This document shows, one piece after another, positions 31,574-61,277 of a DNA stretch of 64,000 bases. Within the stretch, counting starts at the first letter, position 1; the number at the start of each line of letters is the position of its first letter. The notes under the pieces are model-generated. The model was not told the origin of the DNA. It worked only from the letters and a program-made list of their open reading frames with translations, and ran no database searches. The position numbers and the translations under genes are program-made. The stretch comes from Bdellovibrio sp. KM01 (lineage in GTDB: Bacteria > Bdellovibrionota > Bdellovibrionia > Bdellovibrionales > Bdellovibrionaceae), in NCBI RefSeq assembly GCF_013752535.1, contig NZ_CP058348.1, positions 682,001 to 746,000 on the forward strand, read 5' to 3'.

Positions 31574-31687
31574 ATGAAACAGGTAGAACTAGAAACGGCT
31601 CCTACGACCAATACACAACTTGAAAGTACAAGTACTGCTACTCCGGTCCGTAAGAAAAACCGTCGCCGCCGCCTTGCCGCTTGGTAG
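31574..31687 (+). CDS. Small basic-tailed protein, 37 residues
   Basis: Short open frame with a textbook ribosome site, AAAGGAG (31560-31566), 7 nt before the ATG. It starts MKQVELETAPTTNTQ, has a Thr/Ser-rich middle and ends VRKKNRRRRLAAW. The tail has seven basic residues in nine, suggesting nucleic-acid or membrane contact. No signal peptide. A GC-rich terminator hairpin begins 14 nt after the stop, making a compact transcription unit. It could also be a leader peptide, but no gene follows on this strand. No family recognised. Confidence 0.6.
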   Translation: MKQVELETAPTTNTQLESTSTATPVRKKNRRRRLAAW

Positions 31688-31720: not shown

Positions 31721-31727
31721 TTCCACT

Positions 31728-31962
31728 CAACTTTCCTCTTTCCTTTTAAAATTTAGAGTTCGGTGCAGCTGTCGGGCAGATTCTAAATCCCTGTCCTGTA
31801 CGCTTTTCTTGGGCACGCCATCCATGGCTCACCGTCGCCCGCCTTTGGCGGGTTCGCGCATCCTGCGCCGACGGAGGCCCGGCGAAAAGCGTACATGCCA
31901 GTGCTTTAGAATCTACCCGCCAGCTGACGCTATTCTTGTTTCAAAAGGAAAGAGGAAAGTTG
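31728..31962. repeat. Long palindromic repeat element, copy 1
   Basis: A 235-bp imperfect inverted repeat. The outer arms are CAACTTTCCTCTTTCC (31728-31743) and GGAAAGAGGAAAGTTG at the right end (31947-31962). Further in, CAGATTCTAAA pairs with TTTAGAATCTA, and GTACGCTTTTC with GAAAAGCGTAC. The central core, 31812-31880, contains the hairpins CCCGCC-TTT-GGCGGG and GCGCA-TCC-TGCGC and is shared with copy 2 near 59.3 kb. It may be a structured RNA, a REP/BIME-like element or a mobile palindrome. Confidence 0.8.
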
Positions 31963-31970
31963 ATCGCTCG

Positions 31971-32040
31971 CTCTCAAAATTCAACTCAGGCTCGATCACT
32001 GTCGTGATCGTCGCGTAAGTGGTGCGAGGTATTTTGAGAG
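31971..32040. repeat. Nested stem-loop
   Basis: The outer stem CTCTCAAAAT (31971-31980) pairs perfectly with ATTTTGAGAG (32031-32040). Inside is a perfect hairpin CGATCAC-TGTC-GTGATCG (31993-32010). It directly follows the long palindrome and has no T-tract. Confidence 0.65.
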
Positions 32041-32119
32041 AAGGGGAAAATGCCCGAATAAGACCTGTATCCCGCGTCACCATTGGGTCTCCACAGAGAA
32101 ACGACGCTAGTTTTCCGAA

Positions 32120-32161
32120 GGCGGGCGACGGTGAGCCCGGATGGCGTGTCGACGAAGCTGC
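32120..32161 (-). repeat. Half core of the palindromic element, inverted
   Basis: On the minus strand this reads GCAGCTTCGTCG, then ACACGCCATCC, GGCTCACCGTCGCCCGCC. It matches the left half of the core of copy 1 (from 31814) and, including the GCAGCTTCGTCG start, copy 2 (from 59328). The match stops at the central hairpin and no complementary arms are visible, so it looks truncated. Confidence 0.75.
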
Positions 32162-32230
32162 AGGCAGGACCGACACTGCAGGCAAGTCAGACAGGGTTCA
32201 TGGAGCAACTGCCGTCTTTAATCCGAGAGT

Positions 32231-32584
32231 TTATTTCACGCAGTTTGCGTCGTTGAAGATTCTGTATTCGCCTTTGTTTTCGGCGACTGACCATTTGCCT
32301 TCTTTTTTTACTAGGACTCTTTGTGTGCCGTTGATGGGCGACATGGGGATCCAGCCTTCTGTTAGGGAGGTGTCCATTGCGTAGAGTTCTTTTTTGCTGC
32401 CATCCTTATGGTCTTCGATCAGCTCTAGGAGGCCTTCTTGTTTGATTGCCGTGTTTTCTTGGATGGTTATGGTTTTTAGGTCGGGTTGGGAGATGTCTTT
32501 GCAGTAAAGAAGCGTCTTTGTCTTTGCCTGGGTTATGGCAGGGAGAGTGAGAATTGAAATCAGTGTCAGGTTGATGCGCTTCAT
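32231..32584 (-). CDS. Small secreted protein of unknown function
   Basis: 117 residues with a signal peptide (MKRINLTLISILTLPAITQA). The mature part, about 97 residues, has two cysteines (LLYCKDIS and DANCVK at the very end), which could form one disulfide, and a GKWSVAENKGEYRIF strand pair. It looks like a small periplasmic beta protein. No strong ribosome site. No family recognised. Confidence 0.68.
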   Translation of the reverse strand: MKRINLTLISILTLPAITQAKTKTLLYCKDISQPDLKTITIQENTAIKQEGLLELIEDHKDGSKKELYAMDTSLTEGWIPMSPINGTQRVLVKKEGKWSVAENKGEYRIFNDANCVK

Positions 32585-32794
32585 GTGGTGTGGAATAGCA
32601 AACAGAGTTCGAATTGTTGAGTGAAAATCGTGACATATGGAAATAAGAACAGGGTTTGGGGAGCTAAATTAATTTGAAAATCGTCCTCAAGGGGTTGTCA
32701 GCTTGTTTTCATTCTCAAGATGCTATCACCTTGCTTTCAGTCGACTTTCAGTTGTGGGTTTAAAAAAGGAATAGCTGTTCAAGACGCGGGCAAG

Positions 32795-32827
32795 CCTTTA
32801 TCACGGTAGTTCGCTTATAAAGGACTT
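32795..32827 (+). promoter_or_regulatory. Ribosome-site-sequestering hairpin in the rpsD leader
   Basis: CCTTTAT (32795-32801) pairs perfectly with ATAAAGG (32817-32823), and AAG (32792-32794) can pair with CTT (32825-32827) past a bulged A. The right arm contains the AAAGGA ribosome site of rpsD. Because S4 is a known translational autoregulator in other bacteria, this is a candidate feedback site. Confidence 0.5.
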
Positions 32828-32832
32828 ATGAT

Positions 32833-41743: not shown

Positions 41744-42632
41744 GATTCTTTCCTTCCAGATGATCGATCATGGCATTTTTCATTTCGTACCATCTTCTTT
41801 GTCCAACAGAGGCTGCATCAATCAATAAATGATGAAAGATCGATTGCCAACTAAAGGGACGTTTGTGAACAACAAACGTCTTCCACTTATCTAAGCGATA
41901 ATTTGCAATAAAAGACCTGATTCCAGAAGGGCTGACTAATTCATCTAATGGATCGATAAATAAAAGTGTTGGTACGTTGATCGCTTGGCGGTTGGGATGT
42001 CGATTCGCGAAGTTTGCCAGTTCAAATGTCGCGCGGTAGGCCGAGACCGGTGTCCCCGTGGAGTTTGCAAAATAGTTTTCTCGATTGAATAGATTGGGAA
42101 TGATGGTAAACGGATTCATAGTGCTTAAAATTCGCATAATAAATGCGGTTCTGCGAATCGCTACGGCGGGAGCAAACAGAACCATCTTGTCGAAGTGAAC
42201 TTGCTTGTACTTACTCGATAGAGTGACCCCGATAACCCCACCTAAAGAATATCCGACATAGTATATGGGCATCCCATATCTGTCGGCTCGTTCATTGGCT
42301 TGGCAATACGCGCGAAGTGCATCACGCTCCCACATCTCTGCGGTGACATGCTTAAAAATATTCAAATTATTGTTGTGTCCCGAGAGCGACAGTCGCAGCA
42401 CGTCGATCCTGTTTTCGCGCAATACATTTTCAATCGACATCATTCGCGCAGGATTGTTATTCAGTCCGTGTACCACCAAGGCAACGCCTCTGGCCGGCTG
42501 ATATGGAGACATCCGCCATAGGGTTCGCGAGTCGCTTCCTTTCATCAATGTGGGACAGGAGCCAGCGAATGAATCGAAAGAAAATAGAAGTATAAGTAAA
42601 GAAGAGAGGCCGAGAAAAAACGCGTTTCTCAT
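41661..42632 (-). CDS. Secreted alpha/beta hydrolase
   Basis: 323 residues from the ATG at 42632 (an in-frame GTG at 42647 is also possible). A signal peptide (MRNAFFLGLSSLLILLFSFD, cleaved near SFAG) sends it out of the cytoplasm. The oxyanion segment VVHGLNNNPARM, the nucleophile elbow GYSLGG near residue 140, an acidic candidate in LFIDPLDELVSP and a His in SIFHHLL form the triad. Probably a lipase or esterase. Its 3' end runs antisense into the thioesterase gene for 83 bp, and no terminator separates them. Confidence 0.82.
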   Translation of the reverse strand: MRNAFFLGLSSLLILLFSFDSFAGSCPTLMKGSDSRTLWRMSPYQPARGVALVVHGLNNNPARMMSIENVLRENRIDVLRLSLSGHNNNLNIFKHVTAEMWERDALRAYCQANERADRYGMPIYYVGYSLGGVIGVTLSSKYKQVHFDKMVLFAPAVAIRRTAFIMRILSTMNPFTIIPNLFNRENYFANSTGTPVSAYRATFELANFANRHPNRQAINVPTLLFIDPLDELVSPSGIRSFIANYRLDKWKTFVVHKRPFSWQSIFHHLLIDAASVGQRRWYEMKNAMIDHLEGKNLIQDHRLSSTPEWEESFYELSDQIIQR

Positions 42633-42870
42633 TTCAACATCCCCCACGAATGCCCGAACAGGTCGGTTGTAACTTTATTTCTTTTATCCTAGGGAATCGT
42701 TTTTGAGAGTAAACGAACGAGTGTATGTATTTACCGCGGTCGAGGGGGCTAAGACACAGGACTGGCCTTAAGGGCCGGTCTGGGTGTTTCATTCGGAGAA
42801 CATGAATCTCTGTTTAGACTTAATTGCATCTCAGTGGAAATCGCTTAAAAGTTTGACGAAAAATCGTGGA

Positions 42871-42889
42871 ACATTTTAGCTTAAAATGT
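42871..42889. promoter_or_regulatory. Perfect 8-bp inverted repeat, operator-like
   Basis: ACATTTTA, GCT, TAAAATGT. It sits 15 bp upstream of the sigma-28-like promoter, with TTGACG at 42853-42858. A regulator binding site is plausible; a hairpin is the alternative. Confidence 0.45.
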
Positions 42890-42904
42890 CTAATATCCGA
42901 CAGT

Positions 42905-42931
42905 TAAGTCGACTGGATTTTGCTCCGATAG
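42905..42931 (+). promoter_or_regulatory. Sigma-28 (FliA)-like promoter for the GYF-PilZ gene
   Basis: TAAG (42905-42908), exactly 16 nt, then CCGATAG (42925-42931), with the same form and spacing as the element at 5054-5081. It ends 24 bp before the start codon, leaving a short leader with AAGGAG at 42940-42945. Confidence 0.5.
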
Positions 42932-42955
42932 TTATTCCCAAGGAGCACTGAACAA

Positions 42956-59265: not shown

Positions 59266-59470
59266 TGAATTACACAGTCATTGCTTCACCAATCCCGGCA
59301 GCCGTGAATCAGTCTGTCGTGCACCCGCAGCTTCGTCGGCACGCCATCCGTGGCTCACCGTCGCCGCCTTTGGCGGTTCGCGCATCCTGCGCCGACGGAG
59401 GCCGACTGCGTGCGAGTACCCGCCAGCCTGCTTCACGGCTGCCGGGATTGGTGACGATGACTTTAATTCA
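59266..59470. repeat. Long palindromic repeat element, copy 2
   Basis: A 205-bp imperfect inverted repeat. TGAATTA (59266-59272) pairs with TAATTCA (59464-59470), and CACCAATCCCGGCAGCCGTG in the left arm pairs exactly with the complement in the right arm (59432-59452 region). The core, 59339-59403, matches 31812-31880 of copy 1 almost base for base, but the arms are unrelated. The central hairpin is CCGCC-TTT-GGCGG, one base pair shorter on both sides than in copy 1. Confidence 0.82.
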
Positions 59471-59607: not shown

Positions 59608-61029
59608 TTAGAATTTCAGAAGGGCGCCTACATCTAGTTTGCCATTCGATGTTACTTTTCCGTTCAAAGCTGGGATTGGTTTTGCTGAGCCTAGTACTGC
59701 AGCTTTTACGTCCTGCCATGATTTTTCTGGGTGAGCTGACCAGTAAAGAGCAGCGGCACCTGCAACGTGTGGAGTGGCCATTGAAGTTCCGTCCCATGTT
59801 GCTTTGAAGCCGTATTTGTCGATCACGATGTCAGAGTAGTTGTTGAATACTGTTGTTGAGAAAACAACTACGCCTGGTGCGCCGATATCTACTGAGCGGT
59901 TACCCCAGTTTGAGAATGAACCCAATTGGTCTTTTGCGTCGATGGCCGCCACAGAGATGATGATGTCGTGTGGGTAGCTTGATGGGTAAGCAGGGGCCGC
60001 GTCGTTGTCATTATCGTAGCCTACGCCTTTGTGGCCGTTACCTGCGGCTGCGATGAAAAGAACGCCTTTGTCTTGGGCGAATTGAACTGCATCACGCAAA
60101 GCTTTGTTTTCTGCGCCTGCATTTGGGTCTTCGCCTTCAGAGCCCCAAGAGTTGCTCATGATTTTTGCGCCGTTGTTAACTGCATAGTTGATCGCTTTGA
60201 TGGCGTCAGCAGTTGTACCTTGACCTTTTTCAGAGATGAAACGCAAAGACATGATTTTTACATTTGGTGCAACGCCTGCGATACCTTTGCTGTTGTTGTT
60301 GCGAGCGGCAACATTACCAGCGCAGTGAGTACCGTGACCTGGGTTACCACCTTTGAAAAGGATGTCCAGAGGTTCCATTGACAGGTCGTATGGTTTATTG
60401 TCGTTAGAAACAAAGTCCCAACCGATTGTGTCGTCGATATAGCCGTTGCCATCATCGTCGATACCGTTGTTGGCGATCTCTTTTGGATTTCTCCAAAGGT
60501 TCGGCAAAAGATCTTCGTGAGTATAGTCCACACCCGTGTCGATCACGGCTACAACCATATCAGGTGAACCTTGAGTGACTTTCCAAGCTTCAACGACGCC
60601 GATATTGTTCATGCCCCATTGTTTATCGAACATTGGGTCCGCGCCCGGAGTTGATTGCGGAGCGTTAGGAATTTCTGGGTTGTCTTTGATCGCCAGAACT
60701 TGTGGTTCTGGATTGCGACGCAACATTTTTGCCAAAGCAGCTCTGCGCAATGGATCTTGAATGCGGTAGTCTTCCATCAAATGGATTGGGTAGTTCGGTT
60801 GAACGTACTCCACCGCTGGATTTTTCACCAAAGTGTTTAAACTCATGGATTTTGGAGCTTGAACACGAACTAGACTTTCCGTGATTTTCTCTGTTTTTGC
60901 CCCTTGGATTTCTACATCTTCGTAGCCAGGTGCTAGTTTAATAAGCAAATCTTGCGTTTTATGCTGAGCTTGAGCGCCCAAAGCGAAAGCAAGAACGGCA
61001 GCAGATGCGAACACAGCCATCTTAGTCAT
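59608..61029 (-). CDS. Secreted subtilisin-like serine protease (S8 family)
   Basis: 473 residues from the ATG at 61029, 5 nt after AAAGGAG; the open frame to 61119 lacks a ribosome site. Signal peptide MTKMAVFASAAVLAFALGAQ, an inhibitor-like propeptide (about 25-85; LLIKLAPGYEDVEIQG, VQPNYPIHL) and the peptidase domain from about 135. Triad: D164 (VIDTGVD), H232 (GHGTHCAGN), S416 (GTSMATPHVAG), with N331 for the oxyanion hole and a likely calcium loop DDDGNGYIDD. Exported proteases of this kind are numerous in Bdellovibrio and could digest prey or envelope proteins (inference). Confidence 0.94.
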   Translation of the reverse strand: MTKMAVFASAAVLAFALGAQAQHKTQDLLIKLAPGYEDVEIQGAKTEKITESLVRVQAPKSMSLNTLVKNPAVEYVQPNYPIHLMEDYRIQDPLRRAALAKMLRRNPEPQVLAIKDNPEIPNAPQSTPGADPMFDKQWGMNNIGVVEAWKVTQGSPDMVVAVIDTGVDYTHEDLLPNLWRNPKEIANNGIDDDGNGYIDDTIGWDFVSNDNKPYDLSMEPLDILFKGGNPGHGTHCAGNVAARNNNSKGIAGVAPNVKIMSLRFISEKGQGTTADAIKAINYAVNNGAKIMSNSWGSEGEDPNAGAENKALRDAVQFAQDKGVLFIAAAGNGHKGVGYDNDNDAAPAYPSSYPHDIIISVAAIDAKDQLGSFSNWGNRSVDIGAPGVVVFSTTVFNNYSDIVIDKYGFKATWDGTSMATPHVAGAAALYWSAHPEKSWQDVKAAVLGSAKPIPALNGKVTSNGKLDVGALLKF

Positions 61030-61277
61030 GAAAACTCCTTTCAAAACAATCCTTGTTATGTGGTTACACAGTTCGATTTCTAAACTGATGTTTGAGTCGA
61101 AATTTAAGTCTGTGTTCAATCGAGAGGAGAATCAATTTCATTTGCGACGACCATGGGTTTTGCTAAGGTGCGTTGAAGTTGCGTGCAGAGAGGTTTACGA
61201 TGAGTATCTAGTTGTCAGGACTACGGTTTTTCGTTAGTTACTTAATGATAGCTAATTGAAATTGCAGAGGTGTATTT

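Follow-up and report, generated by a model that had tools for sequence, protein, structure and literature searches.

A genus-wide family of hairpin elements in Bdellovibrio combines a conserved tip with private arms and a one-sided bias in flanking base composition

Results

Two long palindromes share a conserved tip

The window is the whole 64-kb stretch of Bdellovibrio DNA that was analysed. Scanned in full, it holds only two inverted repeats longer than 200 bp, and each carries the same conserved core, which we call the tip. We define core+ as the orientation of the tip in both window copies, and "left" and "right" are set throughout by tip orientation rather than by genes. Gene calls come from a simple script based on codon usage. 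The features are as follows.

31574..31687, +: putative small basic open reading frame of 37 codons plus stop, its 3' end preceding copy 1
31727..31963, +: copy 1, whole imperfect palindrome (private arms and conserved tip), 237 bp
31812..31880, +: conserved tip (core) of copy 1, 69 nt, 95.4 bits
31817..31828, +: hairpin H1 of the copy 1 tip, GCC-ATCCAT-GGC, from the fold and from covarying pairs (helix 2)
31832..31874, +: stem P0 of the copy 1 tip, CCGTCG/CGACGG (31832-31837 with 31869-31874), enclosing H2 and H3
31838..31852, +: hairpin H2 of the copy 1 tip, CCCGCC-TTT-GGCGGG
31856..31868, +: hairpin H3 of the copy 1 tip, GCGCA/TGCGC
31964..32832, +: right flank of copy 1, noncoding and G+T-rich on the + strand
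32115..32148, -: degraded half copy (19.9 bits, E 0.0016), its right side facing the right side of copy 1
59266..59470, +: copy 2, whole imperfect palindrome, from the inverted-repeat scan
59338..59403, +: conserved tip of copy 2, 90.2 bits
59471..60400, +: right flank of copy 2, taking in the 3' part of a subtilase gene (59608-61119, -)

Against its own complement, copy 1 is 71% identical over 247 columns (BLAST), and its fold has a predicted energy of -151 kcal/mol. The earlier note had reported that the core of copy 1 is repeated at 59339-59403; BLASTN within the window bears this out (95.6%, E=5.5e-25) and places copy 2 at 59338-59403. Its reading of the parts also holds, both for the central hairpin, which is shortened to CCGCC-TTT-GGCGG in copy 2, and for the second hairpin and outer stem listed above as H3 and P0. 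Hairpin H1, the long palindrome around the tip of copy 2, the degraded half copy, the private arms, the spread of the family through the genus and the one-sided flank gradient all go beyond that note. Directly to the right of copy 1 lies a separate hairpin that is unrelated to the tip (31973-32045; TCTCAAAAT...ATTTTGAGA), and elsewhere in the window 1.2 kb (41744-42955) are free of called genes.

The tip recurs throughout the genus

BLAST placed the tip at 22-23 sites in this 3.96-Mb genome (G000), ruling out the absence of further copies, which the earlier note would have taken as a refutation. With a covariance model built from 50 tips we found at least 33 copies here, the same minimum in G012, the closest relative, and 15 in B. 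bacteriovorus HD100, one of at least 22 of the 24 Bdellovibrio genomes in which the tip was found; since 150 candidates were scored per genome, copy counts are lower bounds. In HD100, the position of a c-di-GMP riboswitch coincides exactly with that of the published merRNA. Outside the genus, a 291-genome sample of the phylum gave one strong match, in a member of the same family (G166), and otherwise weak ones. Copies occupy the same sites in related species, nearly all sites being common to G000 and its closest relative; at some of these shared sites, copy 2 among them, the tip has been rewritten in all stems. Along the chromosome, tips of both orientations are interspersed.

Rfam (release 15) gave no match at gathering score in the window, and none at E<=0.05 to the tip in four further loci. 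The phage and plasmid records searched held no match to the element, nor did an exact-pattern scan of a named-genome collection that may leave out close relatives, and we found no description of the hairpin family in the open-access literature. A clean pre-insertion site was looked for and none was found. At one site in G000 (L064) the tip is deleted and the arms are retained, and at a site in G022 there is a short hairpin without the core.

Two copies within about 0.75 kb of each other always have their right sides towards each other (core+, then core-); tandem and opposite arrangements do not occur. There is one such full pair in G000 (2556548/2556994) and 11 more in other Bdellovibrio genomes, and copy 1 has a partial partner (31812/32115). 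Arms are mostly unrelated within a pair, and no clear skew is seen in the spacer. We considered inverted duplication as the origin of these pairs and rejected it: right sides face each other in 12 of 12 full pairs, but left arms are clearly shared in only two. At L030 (G015) and at L034/L046 (G019/G001), homologous flanks stand in inverted order relative to the tip, which suggests that the tip may invert relative to its arms.

Tip and arms change in pairs

On the core+ strand the tip reads CACG-[H1]-CTCA-P0[H2 TT H3]P0'-A(G/A)GG, a three-hairpin shape atop a private stem. Among 109 distinct sequences, 20 of the 22 tip pairs have changed on both sides and 97.7% of cells are paired, rising to 99-100% in helices 3, 4 and 5 (P0, H2 and H3). 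The covariation score was 0.516, against 0.149 for shuffled and at most 0.104 for slid alignments, in an alignment whose fitting to the covariance model favours the structure. Covarying positions, the lack of which would have told against the earlier note, are thus present, and the conserved folded single-strand shape of the tip is strongly supported. The note had read this shape as selection for a folded RNA or single-stranded DNA; the conserved single-strand fold stands, and selection on RNA specifically is one possible cause of it. Only three of about 1850 cells in core helices 2-5 are G-U, and switches between U-A and C-G or G-C number in the hundreds. Natural RNA helices of comparable diversity usually contain several per cent G-U.

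The arms measure 40-200 bp per side. Each locus has its own, and homology between arms is confined to orthologous loci. Orthologue pairs differ in their arms by 72 double Watson-Crick changes and 95 single changes; half of the doubles are transversional, and the intermediates, 19 G.T and 18 A.C, show no excess of G.T. Between the orthologues L005 and L068 a run of adjacent pairs has been replaced in both arms, leaving the outer arms, the tip and the neighbours unchanged. Such clustered double changes, which preserve pairing almost without intermediates, are expected if one arm is copied from the other, as in hairpins maintained by template switching (PMC8794818). Given this blockwise rewriting of both arms and the near absence of G-U, arm-to-arm template copying in DNA accounts for the paired changes no less well than selection on RNA does, and on balance they point to copying more than to slow selection.

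The mismatches that persist in the stems are themselves biased: at arm positions 11-40, read on core+, 176 are pyrimidine-pyrimidine, mostly C.T, and 22 are purine-purine (p=5e-31). Those of the C.T type tend to lie 2, 4 or 6 bp apart, seldom 1 bp, and are often at positions conserved between species. A C.T mismatch read on the other strand is G.A, which is well tolerated in folded RNA and DNA, and the folded strand may therefore be core minus. The same bias would also be expected from poor repair of C.T in a core+ hairpin.

The flanks differ in composition and in divergence

At 120-480 bp from the hairpin, the + strand has a G+T content of 0.499 on the left and 0.618 on the right, the right being the higher in 64 of 72 loci (p=1.5e-12), which include orthologues and so are not independent. 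Taken genome by genome, the difference holds in G000 (17 of 21 loci, p=0.0002), in HD100 (p=0.007) and in G013 (p=0.002), and its direction agrees in every genome of the genus with data, some of which contribute one or two loci. With loci aligned on the tip, the right flank near the hairpin has a G-over-C skew of 0.2-0.34 and a T-over-A skew of 0.2-0.27, which reach zero by about 900 bp (a reach of ~0.8-1 kb), and the left flank has no skew. The asymmetry is seen in all four gene-orientation classes.

Third codon positions show the bias in genes of either strand. Over 0-400 bp in G000, G+T at codon position 3 is 0.52 on the left and 0.75 on the right (bootstrap CI of the difference 0.15-0.32), and the effect is weak in G013 (CI -0.01 to 0.17). 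Among genes of either strand, composition at third positions over the right-hand 0-400 bp is A 0.10-0.14, C 0.10-0.13, G 0.35-0.42 and T 0.34-0.41, that of the left side being normal. Within the window, the 400-bp interval richest in G+T starts at 32201, to the right of copy 1, and the subtilase gene beside copy 2 has a codon-3 G+T (+ strand) of 0.67-0.73 near the hairpin and of 0.52-0.53 beyond 1 kb.

Right flanks also diverge about twice as fast, with a divergence between orthologues of 0.124 compared with 0.059 on the left; the right is the higher in 14 of 14 pairs (p=0.001), and in additional pairs it could not be aligned at all. Among the few substitutions that could be polarised, in six trios, changes from A/C to G/T affected 15 of 346 sites and changes from G/T to A/C 29 of 634; the expected excess towards G/T was absent.

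Neighbouring genes and transcripts

At 17 of 34 loci the palindrome takes in part of the left gene; at none of the 34 does it take in any of the right gene. Ends of left genes within palindromes would be expected if the left side were the template from which the right is copied; this overlap is supportive only, since right-hand genes also lie farther off. Of 30 left genes within 150 bp, 27 are in sense orientation, and the element mostly follows the stop codon, a position that hints at a role in the transcript. Of 37 loci, 24 have a run of at least five T beyond the palindrome on the + side and nine have one on the other side, and a separate ordinary terminator often adjoins the element.

One HD100 copy (1339146-1339250, +) lies downstream of a small open reading frame inside the published attack-phase transcript APsRNA6 (1,338,787-1,339,441, +), which extends beyond the palindrome. 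APsRNA6 itself looks less like a pure sRNA than like the mRNA of a small membrane-like protein with one copy of the element downstream. Scans for a promoter of the element's own that would drive a minus-strand RNA gave no signal. The G.A-type mismatches on the minus strand and the larger free space on the right side hint at such an RNA; we nevertheless rejected a discrete minus-strand transcript, as it lacks promoter support and the one known transcript, APsRNA6, runs the other way.

Discussion

The element unites an observed conserved tip, private paired stems that change in concert, a one-sided base gradient and faster divergence of the right flank. We tentatively propose, at somewhat less than an even chance, that it is a dispersed, strand-specific DNA hairpin site that triggers repeated one-directional, error-prone resynthesis or strand exposure. 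The more specific form of this proposal, in which a chromosomal DNA hairpin is the starting point of directional mutagenesis or resynthesis, with the right arm rewritten from the left and a strand-specific gradient reaching up to about 1 kb on one side only, we hold a little more hesitantly still. Folding of the hairpin strand would stall or start synthesis of the + strand at the hairpin. The 3' end of the + strand might then fold back and copy the left arm, thereby making or repairing the right one; such copying would explain why arms are private, why paired changes come in blocks and why the ends of left genes have been copied into palindromes. Synthesis, or exposure of the displaced + strand to deamination, would proceed rightwards with high error and leave G and T behind, the errors fading over ~0.8-1 kb. 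SbcD is a subunit of a hairpin nuclease; no match to its model rose above the curated cut-off in any of the 24 Bdellovibrio genomes, whereas 8 of 14 control genomes were above it, and its apparent absence would let long palindromes persist. Searches for reverse transcriptases and Y1 proteins revealed no initiating enzyme. A diversity-generating retroelement or retron was considered and rejected: RVT_1, a model that may miss divergent reverse transcriptases, matched in 4 of 24 genomes and not in G000. The mismatch bias (C.T as opposed to A.G), its even spacing and its conservation across species suggest structural selection besides copying, and count against this proposal as the best explanation. 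So do the polarised substitutions without an excess towards G/T, the weak codon-3 effect in G013 and the sense position of elements after nearby genes.

The element might instead be a structured RNA, a giant 3'-UTR element that terminates or stabilises the transcript of the left gene and whose pairing is kept by selection on the RNA fold. The sense position after left genes, the T-runs on the + side, the strong covariation and the copy within APsRNA6 all speak for this, although with 8 sRNAs and 15 copies in HD100 a single overlap may have arisen by chance. We consider this reading less likely than our proposal, though a serious rival to it, given that G-U is almost absent from the tip on either strand, that the stem mismatches resemble RNA tolerance on the opposite strand (G.A on core-), that all four gene-orientation classes are populated and that the one-sided flank gradient is left unaccounted for. 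A 3'-UTR role could possibly coexist with a DNA mechanism, and by itself it does not explain the gradient. Transcription could also be held responsible for the gradient, if rightward transcripts formed R-loops in which the + strand is deaminated, the hairpin being terminator-like. A>G together with C>T on one strand is a known signature of single-strand deamination (PMC3269015), RNA-DNA hybrids initiate quasi-palindrome mutations in yeast (PMC3820800), and the sense position after left genes would suit such a process. Yet the bias is also present where the left gene points away (the '--' and '-+' classes), the left side has no skew although transcription runs there too, and there is no promoter signal next to the palindrome, which together make this account improbable.

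Least probable of all, in our view, is a REP-like mobile element, its tip spread by a Y1 (RAYT-type) transposase, with the arms and skew as by-products. Copies are many and dispersed, and the two genomes richest in them, G000 and G012, carry 12 and 10 Y1 genes, respectively. However, all 12 Y1 genes are more than 2 kb from the nearest tip, the three Y1 loci examined have unrelated inverted repeats of their own, and G013, G017 and G008, without a Y1 match, hold at least 19, at least 6 and at least 12 copies; nor does the number of Y1 genes predict the skew, and related species have copies at shared sites. At the G000 loci L092, L096 and L102, several Y1 genes are flanked by short repeats of their own that start with AAAAGGT, each of a different type.

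Returning to the DNA hairpin that we favour, parts of its behaviour have parallels in known systems. Like REP/BIME, ERIC and NEMIS, it is a short conserved palindrome whose intergenic copies number in the tens and often adjoin gene ends; unlike them, it conserves the tip only, has private co-varying arms of 40-200 bp and is accompanied by a one-sided base gradient. Multi-base compensatory changes and repair of the stem from the other arm are common to the template-switch-maintained hairpins of Monttinen and Loytynoja, 2022 (PMC8794818), whereas the Bdellovibrio element is tied to one recurring conserved tip and has a one-directional flank gradient. The hairpin of the mitochondrial light-strand origin (PMC3269015) resembles it in a gradient that is consistent with A>G and C>T changes, is most pronounced at codon position 3 and fades with distance; the Bdellovibrio element differs in being chromosomal, in its many copies and its reach of ~1 kb, and there is no sign of an origin role. 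APsRNA6 of HD100 (PMC3627812) contains one copy by coordinate, but was published as a lone sRNA without a recognised family, and the other copies are absent from the published sRNA list.

The Bdellovibrio tip teaches that covariation by itself is no proof of RNA function. Even under another mechanism, this is a genus-wide structured element with private stems that is new to Rfam release 15, and the system is tractable, its host being a culturable predator for which a transcriptome already exists. If our proposal is true, hairpin maintenance, palindrome growth and local mutation bias would be joined in one testable element, and bacterial chromosomes would hold numerous fixed sites of raised, one-sided mutation set by folded DNA.
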